Shown here piece by piece: positions 635 to 10,106 of a stretch of 40,035 nucleotides of DNA (its first letter is position 1; every line of letters begins with the position of its first letter). Under the pieces are notes generated by a model. It had not been told where the DNA came from, did no database searches, and saw only the letters and a list, made by a program, of their open reading frames with translations. A program made the translations under genes and the position numbers. Location: contig JAQVOJ010000016.1 of NCBI GenBank assembly GCA_028702675.1, forward strand, positions 1 to 40,035, read 5' to 3'. This DNA is from Bacteroidales bacterium (lineage in GTDB: Bacteria > Bacteroidota > Bacteroidia > Bacteroidales > ML635J-15).

Positions 635-3421
635 ATGCAAACGCGGGAACTTCAACAAGCATTAATCAGGCTTTTTGCTATTGTGGTGGCAGGTAGCGAA
701 GGAAATTTGTCGGAACGCTCCAAAACGGTATTCGATAATTATTTAAACATCCACGTTCCTTCTCGTTCAAAGGGAGATGCTAAAAAACTATTTTATGAAT
801 TAATTGAAAAACATAATTCGGAAAAGGGTTTTAAAAAAGTATCACTTAATTCTGTAAAAATACTAAGGATTTGCAGTGAGATAAACAAACAAAATAAAAT
901 TGAACAAAGAATAGAATTACTCATCCATCTTATTTCATTTACATATTCGTTATCGAAATTAACAAAATGGTCATTAGAATTTTTGCAAGCTGTTGCCGAT
1001 GCCCTGGAAATACCCCCTAAAATATATTTAAACATAAAAAACTTTACATGCGGAGAACTTGAAAGTCTTTTAGATAAGAACTTGATAAAGAATTTTGATT
1101 CCTTTATTGCATTTAAGCCTTACGAAAACATTTATATTCTACAAAGCCGAAGTTCAGAGTTATATATAAACGGTAAGGTATTGTTTGAAGGAGAATTCAC
1201 AATAATCCCTCGAGGAGCTTTAATAGAAACAGAAGAAGGCAAATATACATGGGATATAATAAGCGATTCGTTAAGTACAAATTCAGGAGATAGTTTTTGT
1301 TTACAAATAAATTCCATAAGCTACAAGATCCGGAAAAAACAAATACTTTACCCAACATCTTTGAGGCTTAATTCGGGTGATTCACTCGCAGTTTTAGGAA
1401 CAAGCGGTGCCGGCAAAAGTACATTTCTAAAACTTATATGCAATTTATTGCCCGTGAAAAATAGCATTACTCTTAGTTCATCCGAAAACAAAATTAAGGA
1501 CTTCCAGACTGCTTATGTACCCCAAGAAGATGCTCTTATACCTGAGTTTACCCCTAGTCAGATGCTTAAGGACAGAAGAAAATTGATTAAGGCTTGTAAG
1601 CAAAAACTTTCATCATATAATAATGAAGAAATATTGCAACTTGTAGGGCTTAGTAAAGTGAGGGAACAAAAAATCGGTAATAACTTAAAATCAGAGCTTA
1701 GTGGAGGGCAACGTAAAAGATTAAGTATTGCTATGGAACTTTTACGCGAAGTTGACATTCTATGCCTTGATGAACCTACAAGCGGGCTTTCTTCGGGTGA
1801 TGCAATAAAAATTGCTGATGTAACTAATAATATTTGTAATAATGGGAAAATTGTAATTGCAAGTTTACATCAACCCTCGTTTGAATTATTAAACCGTTTC
1901 AATAAAATACTCCTTATTGACAAAGGTGGTTATCCTGTATATTATGGAACACCTGCCGAGGCTCCCGGGTATTTTAGGAACATTGCAGAAATTGCCGATA
2001 ACACAGGTTTAAATTGTCCGGCTTGCGGTTCGTACAAACCCGATGATTTATTTAAAATATTAGAATTTGAATACAATAACAAAAGACGAATAAAGTCAGA
2101 AACATGGTATGAGTATTACCTTAAAGAACATGTTCTATCAGTAAATTCTGAATCAAGCACTGAACAAGAAAGAGTCTCAAAACAAGGAAGTTTTATAAAA
2201 AAAACAATTACCTATCTGCAAAGAGATTTTAAACGCAGTTTTCTCAAAATTTCGACATTTCTAATGAACCTAGCCCTTCCGATTATTCTGATAGTGCTAA
2301 TAGGTTTGATTTCACGAGCAGGCATCACACCCTATACATTGTTCCACAATCCTAATCTTCCGGCAGCTATTTTAATGCTTATTGTTGCAGCTTTATTTAC
2401 AGGTATGGTTAGCACAGGAACGTATATTAACGGAGATTCAGAGTTTAGACCCACTGATATTATTATTGACAAATCACAAAAAGCATATTTGTTTTCAAAG
2501 CTATTGCAAGCTGTATTTTGGGCTGCTATTGCATCACTTATCTTTACGACCGGCTTCCTAAGTTTTCTCAGTATCCATGATCTCTTTACAAGATATTTTA
2601 TAATAGTTTTTCTTACAACATTATTCGGCAGCCTCACAGGTTTGGTTTTATCAAAATGGATACGCTCCGCTACTTTAGTTTATTTACTTGTACCTGCTTT
2701 AATTATACCACAACTTATGCTTAGCGGATTAGTAATTGACTATAATAACCTGCCTCAATATCTAAAAAACGAAGAATATGTACCTTTAATTGCTGAACCT
2801 ATTGCGTCTCGTTGGGCATTTGAAGCATTATGTGTTAATCAATACACCAATAACGATTATGAATTCTATTTTAACCAAACCAGACAAGAATTACACAGAG
2901 CAAATTATTATTTGTTTTATTTTATTCCTTTAGTTGAAGATACTTATAAAACCAATGCTGAAGGTGCTACACAGATAATTAAAAATGAACAAAATAAATA
3001 CTATCATTTCCCACAGTTTAGCACTGATAATTTTAACTCACTGAACTTTCTGAAGCATTATTTCAATCAATTAAGACAAAATGCCATAAACGAAGAAGAC
3101 CAAATAAAAAGTCAACTCAAAAAGGTTTACGATTTAAATCAATTATCATCAAATTACACAAACTCATCATTGAACAAACTCTTGTTTAATGTTTATAACG
3201 ACAAAGGATATAAAATTATAAGCAATAATGTAATAAGGAAATACGCACCGGTTTACCATATTCCTTACCAAAAATTTGGTAGAGCTCACATGTTTGCTCC
3301 TTATAAAAGAATGGGCAATTATTTAATCTCAACACATAACTTTAATTCTCTAATTCTAACTTTAATGAATTTACTGCTTACAATTCTTTTATTTATTAAT
3401 ATCCCAAAGCGTAATACTTAA
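635..3421 (+). CDS. ABC transporter, fused ATPase and permease with TerB-like N-terminus
   Basis: This 928-residue protein combines an ATP-binding domain and membrane permease in the ABCG-like order (ATPase first). Residues 1-60 (LIRLFAIVVAGSEGNLSER) resemble TerB-like domains. The ATPase shows Walker A GTSGAGKST at 255-263, a Q-loop near 296, signature LSGGQRKRLS from 355, Walker B ILCLDE at 375-380, and an H-loop histidine at 412. A CPAC pair at 461-464 follows the ATPase. Hydrophobic segments start near 545 and recur to about 710, then again at the extreme C-terminus, with a long soluble loop between. The substrate is unknown; ABCG-like architecture suggests export of a lipid or hydrophobic compound. 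The start is the ATG at 635. It is followed 33 bases later by tex, which has its own promoter-like box. Confidence 0.85.
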   Translation: MQTRELQQALIRLFAIVVAGSEGNLSERSKTVFDNYLNIHVPSRSKGDAKKLFYELIEKHNSEKGFKKVSLNSVKILRICSEINKQNKIEQRIELLIHLISFTYSLSKLTKWSLEFLQAVADALEIPPKIYLNIKNFTCGELESLLDKNLIKNFDSFIAFKPYENIYILQSRSSELYINGKVLFEGEFTIIPRGALIETEEGKYTWDIISDSLSTNSGDSFCLQINSISYKIRKKQILYPTSLRLNSGDSLAVLGTSGAGKSTFLKLICNLLPVKNSITLSSSENKIKDFQTAYVPQEDALIPEFTPSQMLKDRRKLIKACKQKLSSYNNEEILQLVGLSKVREQKIGNNLKSELSGGQRKRLSIAMELLREVDILCLDEPTSGLSSGDAIKIADVTNNICNNGKIVIASLHQPSFELLNRFNKILLIDKGGYPVYYGTPAEAPGYFRNIAEIADNTGLNCPACGSYKPDDLFKILEFEYNNKRRIKSETWYEYYLKEHVLSVNSESSTEQERVSKQGSFIKKTITYLQRDFKRSFLKISTFLMNLALPIILIVLIGLISRAGITPYTLFHNPNLPAAILMLIVAALFTGMVSTGTYINGDSEFRPTDIIIDKSQKAYLFSKLLQAVFWAAIASLIFTTGFLSFLSIHDLFTRYFIIVFLTTLFGSLTGLVLSKWIRSATLVYLLVPALIIPQLMLSGLVIDYNNLPQYLKNEEYVPLIAEPIASRWAFEALCVNQYTNNDYEFYFNQTRQELHRANYYLFYFIPLVEDTYKTNAEGATQIIKNEQNKYYHFPQFSTDNFNSLNFLKHYFNQLRQNAINEEDQIKSQLKKVYDLNQLSSNYTNSSLNKLLFNVYNDKGYKIISNNVIRKYAPVYHIPYQKFGRAHMFAPYKRMGNYLISTHNFNSLILTLMNLLLTILLFINIPKRNT

Positions 3422-5600: not shown

Positions 5601-6518
5601 CTAAATATTTTTCAAATCTTTAATAAACTCCTTACAGCTTGTATATCTTTTTGTTATGCCCTTGTTTAGTAATTGCTCTAATTGTGAATTAGGAATTTTA
5701 TAAGGGTTTTCAATAATACTTTCTTTTGCAGTAGCCTTTTTAAGTATCCTAAATATCTGTTTTGGTATTTTACTACAACTCAGTATTTCTGATGAAAGTT
5801 GATGTCTAATTATTCTTGCAGGATGGTCATCTATAAAACAATGCTTTCCGCACATCATTTCATAAAATATTAATCCTGCACTATATATATCTGTTGCACT
5901 AACTGCAAGATATTGCTTATTCAGAATCAACTCAGGCGCACTATAAAGGATGTTAAATGGATTTTTTGCAAATTCAATATCAAATTCGTTACTATCAATA
6001 ATTTTAGAAAGACTAAGATTAATGATTTTTATAATAGGGTCTTCTTCAAATAAGTTTTCAGAATTACATATAATAATATTTTCTGGAGTAATATTACAAT
6101 GTATATAACCTGTCTGATGATATGCATCTAAAGCTTCTAGTATTTTAATCATTATCTGAATTGCTAAAGCTTGATTATGTTTTTCGCTAAAGCTAAATCC
6201 GCTTAAAAATTTCTTAAAACTAATTCCTTCAACATACTCTTGAATTAAAAACAAGTTATCTCTACTTTTTAAGATGTCAATATTTCGTACAATCCCTTTA
6301 TGATTAACACTTATTGAAGCTTCGAGTAAAAATCTCAATTTCTGGGACTCGTCTTTAGCTGTTTCGGCATTTAACTGTTTGCAGATTACTTTTTCCTTTG
6401 TATTTAATCTTGCCCCTAACATTATTATAGAAGTTTTTCCGTAAGACAAAACTGTTTCAGGTACATTAGGAAAAATAATGTATTTGTCAATGGAACCTTC
6501 AAGAATAGTAGGTTTCAT
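5601..6518 (-). CDS. Protein kinase-fold protein, predicted pseudokinase
   Basis: A 305-residue cytoplasmic-looking protein with a recognisable eukaryotic-type Ser/Thr kinase fold: beta-3 lysine K47 (VICKQL), alpha-C glutamate E66, hinge LIQEYVEG near 91, APE motif at 194-196, and the F-helix aspartate in ATDIYSAGLIFYEMM near 210. Key catalytic residues are absent. The HRD-x-K-x-x-N loop reads HCNITPEN (140-147), so the catalytic Asp is Asn and the Lys is Thr. The DFG motif is NLS (167-169), and the glycine loop has lost its glycines. I infer a catalytically dead scaffold or signalling pseudokinase. It starts three bases after the stop of the GWxTD gene, so the two are probably co-transcribed. 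No membrane segment, PASTA or sensor domain is present. Assignment to the fold is strong; the role is unknown. Confidence 0.85.
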   Translation of the reverse strand: MKPTILEGSIDKYIIFPNVPETVLSYGKTSIIMLGARLNTKEKVICKQLNAETAKDESQKLRFLLEASISVNHKGIVRNIDILKSRDNLFLIQEYVEGISFKKFLSGFSFSEKHNQALAIQIMIKILEALDAYHQTGYIHCNITPENIIICNSENLFEEDPIIKIINLSLSKIIDSNEFDIEFAKNPFNILYSAPELILNKQYLAVSATDIYSAGLIFYEMMCGKHCFIDDHPARIIRHQLSSEILSCSKIPKQIFRILKKATAKESIIENPYKIPNSQLEQLLNKGITKRYTSCKEFIKDLKNI

Positions 6519-6521
6519 TTG

Positions 6522-7967
6522 TTATCTTTTATCGAATTCTTCTCTAGCTCTTGAACCCCATTGGTCATCACTTTCAGTATTATCGAAATTATATAATGAA
6601 TTATTCCTTTTACTTAAATAACGTTCCCAATTTGGAGTTTGGAGTTCACCAATAACATTACTGTGGAGTAGTTCAAAATTTTCGCCAACCAACGACTGGT
6701 TATAAAAAACAAATTTACGGTTACGTTGTTGTCCTGCCTCATAATAATGCCATATTTCGTAGGGATAAGCACTCGGTTCATGCTGGCTTTTATAAATATC
6801 GTTAGGTGTACCGTATTGTAAATAAATACGCCCTCTATCGGTTTCATAACCTTTAGAAATAGATGTTTTATACCATTTATTTACATAATCTACTTGTGCT
6901 TTATAGCTTCTCCAATCTTCGCCTGGATTAGGACTATATTTATGCCAAAACTCATAGAAAAATTGTTTCATGTGTTCTTTTTCTGCAGTATTAAGCTGAT
7001 AGTTTATGTAATTTCGTTCGCTCGTTCCTGCAATTGGCCACAAACATGCAATATACTCACGTAAAGAATCAGCACTTTCAAAGTCTCCATCAAAAATCAG
7101 GTTTAACTCATAATCTGCCAATTTATTATCATCATCAAAATTTATAAATTTACTTCGCTGAAAGAATATTTTCTTGTTAGTTATTAGTTCGTTTTCTCTA
7201 TCTCTTAATTCTATTACTAAATTATAATTGCCAGTATATAATTCGCTAATATTCAATTCTCCTACCAATGGTATTACTTTCTGAGGTTTTTGCTTCTTAA
7301 ATCTGCTTAGCTGATCAATTATTTTTCCATCTTCGTATCTTTCGACAAAATATTTAATCAAAAAATCGTCAGTAAAATCAAGATTAGTATTATATATTTC
7401 GGTGTAGAAAATTAGTCTATTCAAATTATCAGGATAAAAATCAGAAATGTATGGCACAAGATCGTATCCGTTTTTGCTAATTACGCTCTCATTTTTAGTT
7501 TCTACAAGCTCTTCTATCAGTTGAATTCCGGAGAACTCTGTTTTTTCATTTTTAAATTCTAACTTAATAATATCTAGAAACAGAAACCCTTTACTATCTG
7601 TATTTTTATCTCGTATTAATAGTTCAAAATTATAAATACCATTATTTAAGGGAATCCTCTGAACGTCAATAAAATTTGGTACATTCTTTAAAGTATCATC
7701 AATTTCAGGGCTTAAAAGATTATATTTTCGGAATGTAACAATACTATCGTTTTGTTTGAATAGCATAGTTATTTCAATCTCTGCCTGATATTTACCACTT
7801 TCAGTTTGTTTAAATACAGCAGTTTTTCCGATTGTACTTATATAAGTTTCGATATAGGTTTTTTCGGGCGAATTAAATGCAGCATACATAAAATAAGCAT
7901 CAAGCTCATTTGAATATGCCAAGCTATTTAAACTGACAACCAAAATAATCACAATAATTTTCTTCAT
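6522..7967 (-). CDS. GWxTD domain-containing secreted protein
   Basis: A 481-residue protein with an N-terminal signal peptide (MKKIIVIILVVSLNSLAYSN), so probably exported to the periplasm or outer surface. The middle is beta-rich with no motif I recognise. The C-terminal third carries the GWxTD-type domain: FWHKYSPNPGEDWRSYKAQV, then KGYETDRGRIYLQYGTPNDI, then YEIWHYYE. The signature tryptophan is tyrosine here (GYETD). This family is common in Bacteroidota but its function is not established. The start ATG at 7965-7967 directly precedes the signal peptide. A -7-like TAATTTGC lies on the minus strand at 7994-8001, one base short of consensus spacing. The predicted pseudokinase follows three bases downstream. 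Confidence 0.85.
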   Translation of the reverse strand: MKKIIVIILVVSLNSLAYSNELDAYFMYAAFNSPEKTYIETYISTIGKTAVFKQTESGKYQAEIEITMLFKQNDSIVTFRKYNLLSPEIDDTLKNVPNFIDVQRIPLNNGIYNFELLIRDKNTDSKGFLFLDIIKLEFKNEKTEFSGIQLIEELVETKNESVISKNGYDLVPYISDFYPDNLNRLIFYTEIYNTNLDFTDDFLIKYFVERYEDGKIIDQLSRFKKQKPQKVIPLVGELNISELYTGNYNLVIELRDRENELITNKKIFFQRSKFINFDDDNKLADYELNLIFDGDFESADSLREYIACLWPIAGTSERNYINYQLNTAEKEHMKQFFYEFWHKYSPNPGEDWRSYKAQVDYVNKWYKTSISKGYETDRGRIYLQYGTPNDIYKSQHEPSAYPYEIWHYYEAGQQRNRKFVFYNQSLVGENFELLHSNVIGELQTPNWERYLSKRNNSLYNFDNTESDDQWGSRAREEFDKR

Positions 7968-8009: not shown

Positions 8010-8810
8010 TTATTTACTACGCATAAATTTTTCAATTATCTGAAGTGTTTTAACAAAAATTAAAGAATTAGCTGCTACAATTTCTTTTCCAAATACATAG
8101 TTATCTTCTCCGTTAAAATCGGAAACTTTTCCACCAGCTTCGGTAACGATAAGACTTCCGGCAGCTACATCCCATGATTTAAGGTCGTATTCGTAAAAGC
8201 AATCGAATCTTCCACAAGCAACATAAGCTAGATCTGCTGCAGCAGAACCTAATCTACGAATACCATGAGAATTTTTAATTATATAATCAAGAAGTTCGAA
8301 GGATTCCTTATTTCGATAAAACCTACTTACCGGAAAACCAGTAACAAATAGGGATTCAGAAATTTTTGAATTAGTAGAACAAGTAATTTTTTCTCCATTC
8401 AAAAATGAACCCTTAGCTTTTGTTGCATAAAAACATTCATCATTCGATACTTCGTACACTACTCCAAGTATTACTTCGTTATGATGCATCAAAGCAATGC
8501 TCACAGAATATGGAGACAAACCATGAAGGTAATTAGTAGTGCCATCAAGTGGATCAATAATCCATTTATATTCTAAACTTTCGTTTATTGAATTGTGGCT
8601 CTCTTCGGCTATAAAACCTGCATTTGGAATTACATCTATTAATGATGCAATTATCATTTTTTCAGATGTTTTATCTACATAACTTACGAGGTCATTTTTT
8701 CCCTTTATTTCTATATCTGATTTACTAAATTTATTAATCTCAGATCGAATAAAGCTACCTGCTTGTTTTGCTGCGTCTATTGTTTGACTTAATATTGAAT
8801 CAAAATTCAT
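8010..8810 (-). CDS. Inositol monophosphatase family protein
   Basis: A 266-residue cytosolic enzyme of the Mg-dependent inositol monophosphatase / CysQ superfamily, usual length for the family. The metal-binding motifs are all present: FIAEESH near residue 66, IIDPLDGTTNYLHG near 85-98, and the C-terminal WDVAAGSLIVTEAGG. The fold hydrolyses small sugar or nucleotide phosphates; the actual substrate (inositol phosphate, fructose-bisphosphate or PAP) cannot be read from the sequence. The gene is translationally coupled to mtaB: the mtaB stop codon TAA is immediately followed by this ATG. It ends 42 bases before the GWxTD start. Confidence 0.9.
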   Translation of the reverse strand: MNFDSILSQTIDAAKQAGSFIRSEINKFSKSDIEIKGKNDLVSYVDKTSEKMIIASLIDVIPNAGFIAEESHNSINESLEYKWIIDPLDGTTNYLHGLSPYSVSIALMHHNEVILGVVYEVSNDECFYATKAKGSFLNGEKITCSTNSKISESLFVTGFPVSRFYRNKESFELLDYIIKNSHGIRRLGSAAADLAYVACGRFDCFYEYDLKSWDVAAGSLIVTEAGGKVSDFNGEDNYVFGKEIVAANSLIFVKTLQIIEKFMRSK

Positions 8811-10106
8811 TTAAACTAACTTTACTTTCATTAATTCTTTGTCTTTTTGTTCAACGATTTTTACCCTTGTAATAGTGTTGATTACATCAGGTATTTTTTC
8901 ATGAACAGCTCTGATATAATTTTTAGTAAAACCATACATGTAATAATCGGTATTGGCAGCATGTTCCCACAACACCTCCGACTCTGTATCTATAGCTGAA
9001 CTTAAAAAATCATAATGTTTCTTTTCTGATAGTTTATGCAATAATTTACTTCGATATTTTCTTTCCTTTTTGCTTATTACAGGCTCAATCTCTAATGATG
9101 CTGTTCCTTTTCGCTCACTATATGTAAAAACGTGAATAAAAGATACAGGTATAGATTTAATAAAATCGTAAGAATCGTTAAAAAGCTTTTCAGTTTCTCC
9201 TGCTACACCAACTATCAGGTCCATTCCAATAAAAGCATGTGGCATAAGCGATTTAATTAAGCTAACTTTTTCGGCATACACTTCCCTCTGGTATCTTCTT
9301 TTCATAATTTTCAACATTGTGTTGCTCCCCGACTGCAGAGGAATATGAAAATGCGGCATAAGATTTTTCGATTGTGCCACAATCTCAATTATTTTATTAT
9401 TTAATAGGTTTGGTTCTATGCTACCTAGTCTAATTCTAGTCTTTGTATCCAGATTGTCGATTGCTTCAATTAATTGCAAAAAACTCTCCCCATTGTTTTT
9501 GCCAAAATCTCCAATGTTAACCCCCGTAAGAACTATTTCATTAATTCCTGAGGCACTAATTTCTTGTATTTGATTTAGTGTGTCTGCAATTGACTGACTC
9601 CTACTCCTACCCCTGGCAAAAGGTATTGTGCAATAGGAGCAAAAATAATCACAACCATCTTGTATTTTCAAAAATGACCTTGTTCTTCCTTCGGTATTAA
9701 AAGCAGGGAAAAATGTTTTAAAAATCTGTTGTTCAAATTCATTATCGTTAGAAATTACATAATTACCTGACAATACTTGATCTATTTTATTCTTTTCGCT
9801 TAAACTTAATGCAATATTAGCCTCGGTTTCCTCCAAAATTTTCTGTTTGTTGAGAGCGGAATAACAACCTGTAACAATAATTAATGCATCCTTATTTAGC
9901 TTTCTTGCCTCTGATATTGCATGTAAGCTTTTTTTATCTGCCAAGCTTGTTACTGTGCAAGAGTTAATGACATAAACATCGGCAACCTCTGAAAATTTTA
10001 CTTCGGAATAGCCTAACTGCATTGCTTTTGCATAATAGCTCATGGTTTCAGCATAATTAAGCTTACAACCTAGTGTATAAAAAGCTATAGTTTTTTTGGT
10101 GTGCAT
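8811..10106 (-). CDS. mtaB: tRNA (N6-L-threonylcarbamoyladenosine(37)-C2)-methylthiotransferase MtaB
   Basis: A 431-residue radical-SAM methylthiotransferase. The N-terminal UPF0004 domain supplies cysteines C14 (FYTLGCKLN), C50 (INSCTVT) and C81 (TGCYS), which hold the auxiliary Fe-S cluster. The radical-SAM motif is C152-x3-C156-x2-C159 (DGCDYFCSYCTIPFARGRSR). The C-terminal part (about 370-431) fits a TRAM RNA-binding domain. The tRYS-like opening FYTLGCKLN distinguishes MtaB from MiaB and RimO. It converts t6A37 to ms2t6A37 in ANN-decoding tRNAs. A consensus -7 box ends five bases before the ATG, so the mRNA may be nearly leaderless. The inositol-monophosphatase-like gene follows with no gap. 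Confidence 0.93.
   Translation of the reverse strand: MHTKKTIAFYTLGCKLNYAETMSYYAKAMQLGYSEVKFSEVADVYVINSCTVTSLADKKSLHAISEARKLNKDALIIVTGCYSALNKQKILEETEANIALSLSEKNKIDQVLSGNYVISNDNEFEQQIFKTFFPAFNTEGRTRSFLKIQDGCDYFCSYCTIPFARGRSRSQSIADTLNQIQEISASGINEIVLTGVNIGDFGKNNGESFLQLIEAIDNLDTKTRIRLGSIEPNLLNNKIIEIVAQSKNLMPHFHIPLQSGSNTMLKIMKRRYQREVYAEKVSLIKSLMPHAFIGMDLIVGVAGETEKLFNDSYDFIKSIPVSFIHVFTYSERKGTASLEIEPVISKKERKYRSKLLHKLSEKKHYDFLSSAIDTESEVLWEHAANTDYYMYGFTKNYIRAVHEKIPDVINTITRVKIVEQKDKELMKVKLV

Follow-up and report, generated by a model that had tools for sequence, protein, structure and literature searches.

The gene described here, in a window of 40,035 nt of Bacteroidales DNA, encodes a predicted catalytically dead Hanks-fold protein that was probably kept for binding, in a scaffold or ligand-gated role. 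This was the best reading of the sequences, and its main rival was residual or unusual catalysis. Bacterial pseudokinases are already known as a kind, and this Bacteroidota variant is an additional, undescribed lineage. It offers natural contrasts, since one locus holds dead as well as HCD/DFG orthologues, some genomes have a single Hanks protein, and the dead versions are under strong selection. In the lone-Hanks genomes, removing the gene would probe a non-catalytic role with no other Hanks kinase to confound the result. If the reading is true, they provide a natural test of the use of the kinase fold to a cell without any remaining kinase of its kind.

Gene and Predicted Structure

The features of the locus are listed in Table 1. 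The open reading frame began with ATG, 3 bases past the stop codon of the upstream gene. Residues 26-293 of the product matched the Pfam Pkinase profile (PF00069) with an E-value of 2.1e-32, passing the cut-off, and the Pfam scan gave no second domain within the 305 residues. Neither a transmembrane segment nor a signal peptide was seen in the protein. The AlphaFold2 model had a pLDDT of 87.4 and a pTM of 0.87, and only the activation segment (residues 172-185) fell below a pLDDT of 50. The closest solved structures were the kinase domains of PknB, PknA, and Stk1, and PknB was superposed over 251 residues with a Z of 30.1 and an rmsd of 2.0. The kinase fold first read from the sequence was thus found in the model, and the profile match and bilobal fold place the protein in the Hanks-type (PF00069) superfamily. 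Promoter and terminator scans at the locus stayed at chance level, and a search of viral contigs gave no relative. The PADLOC matches (MAD6 and PD-T4-6) reflected generic kinase similarity and were not read as a sign of phage defence.

Table 1. Features of the pseudokinase locus, with positions in the window and residues of the 305-aa protein.
Feature	Positions	Strand	Evidence
Pseudokinase gene, 305 aa, stand-alone, predicted cytosolic	5601..6518	-	ORF; Pfam Pkinase E 2e-32; AlphaFold2; PknB similarity
alpha-G patch P233...Q240, subfamily-specific, candidate partner-docking surface	5799..5822	-	Q240 conservation
NLS, residues 167-169, instead of DFG	6012..6020	-	sequence, alignments
Catalytic loop HCNITPEN, residues 140-147; HRD Asp to Asn142, Lys to Thr144, Asn147 kept	6078..6101	-	sequence, alignments
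alpha-C Glu66, retained; Thr in g4 dead clade	6321..6323	-	alignments
beta3 Lys47, retained	6378..6380	-	alignments
Degraded glycine-rich loop LSYGKTSIIML, residues 24-34	6417..6449	-	alignments
N-terminal LxGxxxxYxxFP hairpin, residues 6-17, subfamily-specific	6468..6503	-	alignments; model beta strands 8-10, 13-15
GWxTD-domain protein, Sec signal peptide, directly upstream (3-nt gap), presumably same operon	6522..7967	-	TIGR04514 E 7e-19; synteny
Inositol monophosphatase-family (suhB-like) gene, conserved cluster	8010..8810	-	PF00459 E 2e-64; synteny
mtaB (tRNA t6A methylthiotransferase), conserved cluster	8811..10106	-	TIGR01579 above cut-off; synteny

Catalytic Motifs

The sequence-only reading had proposed that HRD was changed to HCN and DFG to NLS, and that the catalytic-loop Lys and the glycine-loop glycines were gone. 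Sequence and alignments confirmed H140-C141-N142, N167-L168-S169, and T144, and the alignments gave the glycine loop as L24-S-Y-G-K-T-S-I-I, in which the Ser25 and Ser30 that replace Gly were family-wide. In addition, the P+1-loop pair Gly188-Thr189 was Phe-Asn, and it was likewise gone in nearly the whole subfamily. The protein retained K47, E66, N147, P195-E196 (the APE Glu196, in S-A-P195-E196), the F-helix D210, and R291; the conservation claimed for K47, E66, APE, and the F-helix Asp held at each position. Among 79 generic relatives (distant kinases from a genome-contig scan, which doubled as the structure alignment), D142, K144, D167, F168, and G169 were conserved at 97-100%, with the values at 142 and 144 biased upward because the set was drawn by its catalytic-loop pattern, but not the DFG and glycine-loop figures. 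Judged on these alignments, the motif changes are far beyond alignment noise. Where a catalytically competent Ser/Thr kinase has the HRD Asp, loop Lys, DFG Asp, and GxGxxG, the window protein had N142, T144, N167, and S25/S30. It is a pseudokinase by the sequence definition of O'Boyle et al. (2025, PMC12599244), in which at least one of the beta3 Lys, HRD Asp, and DFG Asp is lost, as two of the three were lost here.

The same residues bear on weak or unconventional catalysis, in which Asn142 and Asn167 would bind Mg-nucleotide with K47, E66, and N147, giving a slow kinase or another transferase. The last three residues were retained and both catalytic Asp were changed to Asn; moreover, SelO and SidJ are precedents for transferase activity, as pseudokinases can AMPylate or glutamylate (PMC12599244). 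However, the catalytic-loop Lys was Thr, and the glycine loop and P+1 Gly-Thr were lost. Furthermore, the sister losses differed (HCG/DFA, HGN/S-ES, HRR/NLE), and no single alternative chemistry fits them. This alternative was accordingly rated unlikely.

Comparison with Known Kinases and Pseudokinases

The protein shared with Hanks kinases of the PknB/Stk1 type the kinase fold, K47/E66, the APE Glu/Arg291 pair, and the F-helix Asp, but lacked their HRD and DFG Asp, GxGxxG, P+1 Gly-Thr, transmembrane segment, and PASTA domains. It scored 101 bits against a cut-off of 450 for the PknB PASTA kinase (NCBIfam NF033483), having 305 aa and a kinase domain only. The review of bacterial pseudokinases covers seven families, the functions of which are all unknown, and does not mention Bacteroidetes/Bacteroidota (PMC12599244). 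CP1 pseudokinases, found mainly in cyanobacteria and proteobacteria, carry a COG3899 fusion (O'Boyle et al. 2025, PMC12599244). Like CP1, the window subfamily is soluble, without a transmembrane segment, and has intact and degraded members with variable motifs in one family; unlike CP1, the window protein stands alone beside GWxTD, without a COG3899 fusion. ActPs2 pseudokinases carry Arg for the beta3 Lys, HRN, and mostly a DFG deletion (PMC12599244). The window protein shared with them the change of the HRD Asp to Asn, whereas it kept Lys47 and had NLS. EssB is membrane-anchored and part of T7SSb (PMC12599244). EssB/YukC resembled the window protein as a non-catalytic kinase-fold scaffold in a bacterium with a degraded glycine loop (non-catalysis being predicted in the window protein), but it has a membrane anchor, and Pfam gave no EssB/YukC match in the window protein. 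By sequence, the protein is of the same kind as the seven reviewed families, and it fails the defining features of the two compared, CP1 and ActPs2.

Subfamily Features

The window protein belonged to a subfamily of stand-alone kinases with conserved features of its own, as it had the alpha-G Gln, [FYI]xxxY before [AP]PE, the N-terminal G-Y motif, and a clade support of 100/98. Q240 was invariant in the alignment of 29 proteins and occurred in 6% of generic kinases. The LxGxxxxY hairpin was common to the subfamily, and the trailing FP was found in f1, the family of the window. The whole subfamily was without GxGxxG (Ser there in f1), and its P+1 Gly-Thr was replaced by F/Y-N/S/A. A wider search placed members in families f5, f19, f25, f30, f54, f58, f67, and f86 of the same order. 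The relatives outside f1 shared the N-terminal Gly/Tyr motif, F[ASN]xxY before [AP]PE, the alpha-G Gln, and the degraded glycine loop, but most kept HRD/HCD with DFG/DFE, and none lay beside GWxTD in the loci read. Two dead members of f5, L181 (G249) and L182 (G152), had HRRIQPNT/NLE and HRSICPQH/AFE, respectively, both with a beta3 Arg, and f5 also held an HRDIKPSN/DFE relative (G034) beside them.

Orthologues and Their Motif States

Orthologues were sought among 100 relatives and in the surrounding DNA. The gene was present in 29 of the 30 other sampled f1 genomes; no kinase match was obtained in the f1 genome G024, a 450-contig assembly with its GWxTD gene at a contig edge. At this one syntenic locus, the motif states ranged from HCDIKPxN/D[FL]G through several distinct dead states. 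Several species of genus g4 had HCD[IV]KPxN with DFG or DLG, and this genus also held HSDLKPSN/DLG and LCDVKPSN with DLS or DIE, as well as 12 species forming a dead clade, in which the motifs were HGN[LI][TR]PEN and S[IV]E (GIE in one case). Genera g2, g3, and g5 had HRN[IL]KPSN/DFD, HCNICPEN/DLD, and HCGLKPGS/DFA, respectively, and the window genus g1 had HCNITPEN/NLS. The exact HCN/NLS pair occurred in no other orthologue found, the nearest being HRN/DFD, HCN/DLD, and HCG/DFA. The expected conservation of HCN/NLS across orthologues was therefore not borne out for the pair, while the HRD Asp was missing in each genome sampled from the four non-g4 genera. One outcome that would have spoken against the sequence-only reading, active orthologues beside a merely degenerate copy, was half seen: HCDIKPxN/DFG occurred in g4, yet the window gene is not one degenerate copy, because no genome sampled from the other four genera had the HRD Asp. 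As HCD/DFG orthologues exist, catalysis may matter in those proteins, judging from their motifs. An HCDVKPDN/DLG orthologue (L038, genome G029) had an in-frame TAG near residue 250, and another GWxTD gene in G029 (G029:C10) carried a TAG as well, which may reflect a peculiarity of assembly or coding.

Recurrent Loss of the Catalytic Aspartates

In the f1 kinase tree, for which the motif columns were left out, the HRD Asp changed 2 times by plain parsimony, with a regain needed, and 3 times when only losses were allowed. A single clade of all f1 losers was rejected (AU p 2.4e-5), as was holding g1, g2, g3, and g5 together (p 5e-4), in tests where the groups were named after motif states and long branches were in play. 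The neighbouring-gene tree joined g1, g2, g3, and g5 with weak support. In the wider subfamily tree, the HRD Asp changed 4 times and the DFG Asp 3 times, and the subfamily clade had a support of 100/98. From these trees, f1 lost the HRD Asp two to three times, and another family lost it one further time; the precise count is uncertain, but more than one loss is secure.

Selection on the Gene

The 12 dead g4 orthologues had a median dN/dS of 0.049 (46 usable pairs, with shared branches), and their HCD/DLG relatives had 0.054 (3 pairs). Moreover, the changed catalytic loop of the dead clade was nearly invariant (15 of 17 columns). By these sequence measures, the dead g4 proteins are as constrained as the HCD/DLG relatives. 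As the window lineage lacks close relatives, selection on its copy was judged by its open frame and the retained scaffold rather than by dN/dS. The window kinase evolves faster than its neighbour, as it shared 32% identity with its g4 relatives, and the GWxTD protein 51%. This long branch fits relaxed constraint or a changed function of the window kinase.

The gene might be a pseudogene in the making, recently freed from an active ancestor and with decaying constraint. Active-looking g4 orthologues, the long window branch, and the restriction of HCN/NLS to the window genome are in line with this. However, neutral simulation at 0.25 substitutions per site gave a mean of at least 8 stops and an open frame in 0 of 2000 runs, while the window gene had 305 open codons at 28% GC. 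A confident fold, kept synteny, and the missing HRD Asp throughout the genomes sampled from the four non-g4 genera also oppose decay, which was considered quite unlikely. As far as the sequence tells, this is an intact syntenic gene and not a decaying copy. The claim of a pseudokinase with its scaffold under selection was supported by the intact frame, the synteny, the fold, a dN/dS of about 0.05 in the dead sister clade, and recurrent loss of the HRD Asp.

Hanks Proteins in the Genome

The assembly that contains the window (G000) was 98.9% complete, and the pseudokinase was its only Pkinase match. One match each was also found in G001, G002, G005, G013, and G014, all with dead copies. The PP2C_2 and FHA profiles gave no match in G000, which had two genes of the SpoIIE-type phosphatase fold. 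Hence, of the proposed selection for binding or signalling, the part on a retained scaffold under selection was upheld, while canonical Ser/Thr kinase signalling is unlikely in a genome without another Pkinase, PP2C_2, or FHA match. Pseudokinases in eukaryotes commonly regulate active kinases allosterically, and several g4 genomes do hold other Hanks kinases that such a regulator could act on. For the window genome, this explanation is largely refuted and was rated highly improbable, since none of the six single-match genomes had another Pkinase match; a second Hanks kinase to be regulated is ruled out in the cell, unless it lies in the missing 1% or was missed by the profile. The number of Hanks kinases varied strongly in the order, with up to 8 in f1 genomes, 15 matches in G046, and one in sister genomes (noted at G009:C14, G008:C3, and G046).

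Proposed Mode of Action

The ancestral function of the subfamily may already have been mainly non-catalytic, because the loss of GxGxxG and P+1 Gly-Thr is subfamily-wide and the N-terminal hairpin and alpha-G Gln are shared. With a non-catalytic main role, phosphotransfer could therefore be lost repeatedly and the protein kept. We put forward only tentatively the full claim that the main ancestral job of the lineage was non-catalytic and that phosphotransfer was lost at least three to four times in parallel under strong selection, also where no other Hanks kinase exists and, in the window genome, where neither a PP2C_2-type phosphatase nor an FHA reader is at hand. The protein itself would most likely be a cytosolic scaffold or allosteric switch, with a candidate partner docked by the alpha-G/N-lobe face. 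Kinases commonly dock other proteins by the alpha-G face, and the putative partner site was placed there for this reason. Nucleotide (ligand) occupancy may set the conformation of the pseudokinase, because K47, E66, and N147 remain.

Gene Cluster and the GWxTD Neighbour

The cluster order in most f1 loci was mtaB-suhB-GWxTD-kinase-LOG, and in the window LOG lay at the opposite end of the cluster. Within this fixed cluster, the kinase gene was inherited vertically. In each of the 23 further f1 loci that were read at length, GWxTD was directly upstream of the kinase, and the gap or overlap was a few bases in most of them. An apparent cleavable signal peptide was read by eye on the GWxTD protein in all orthologues. 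A search of solved structures with GWxTD gave no convincing relative (best E 0.02), and a literature search found no paper naming it. The genomic context names no pathway, because GWxTD has an apparent signal peptide and neither a close solved relative nor a naming paper.

The pseudokinase might serve the exported GWxTD protein directly, as a cytosolic chaperone, an export adaptor, or a regulator of its envelope process. The two genes adjoined in every f1 locus read, and in the rest of the order, outside f1, GWxTD-B was next to lipid A acyltransferase and glycosyltransferase (GT2) genes, which it precedes. However, GWxTD was found in 77 of 100 relatives and had no adjoining kinase in any of the 19 non-f1 GWxTD loci read, and it can thus do without the kinase. 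The signal peptide also stands against direct service, since contact is unlikely with a protein predicted to be exported, and the alternative was given a slim chance. More likely, the pseudokinase and GWxTD would be linked by common regulation or by taking part in one envelope-related process. The idea that a highly diverged kinase is hidden beside GWxTD-B in other families was rejected, as the ten genes scanned were lipid A acyltransferase, GT2, and Dus.

Elsewhere in the window, positions 635-3421 encoded an ABCG-like ATPase-permease fusion of 928 aa, with an N-terminal region of about 220 residues without a Pfam match. The GWxTD proteins of this order were of two types, of about 430 and 490 aa (window 6522-7967; L146-L165). 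Outside f1, lipid A acyltransferase and GT2 genes accompanied the longer type, an association that hints at an envelope role.
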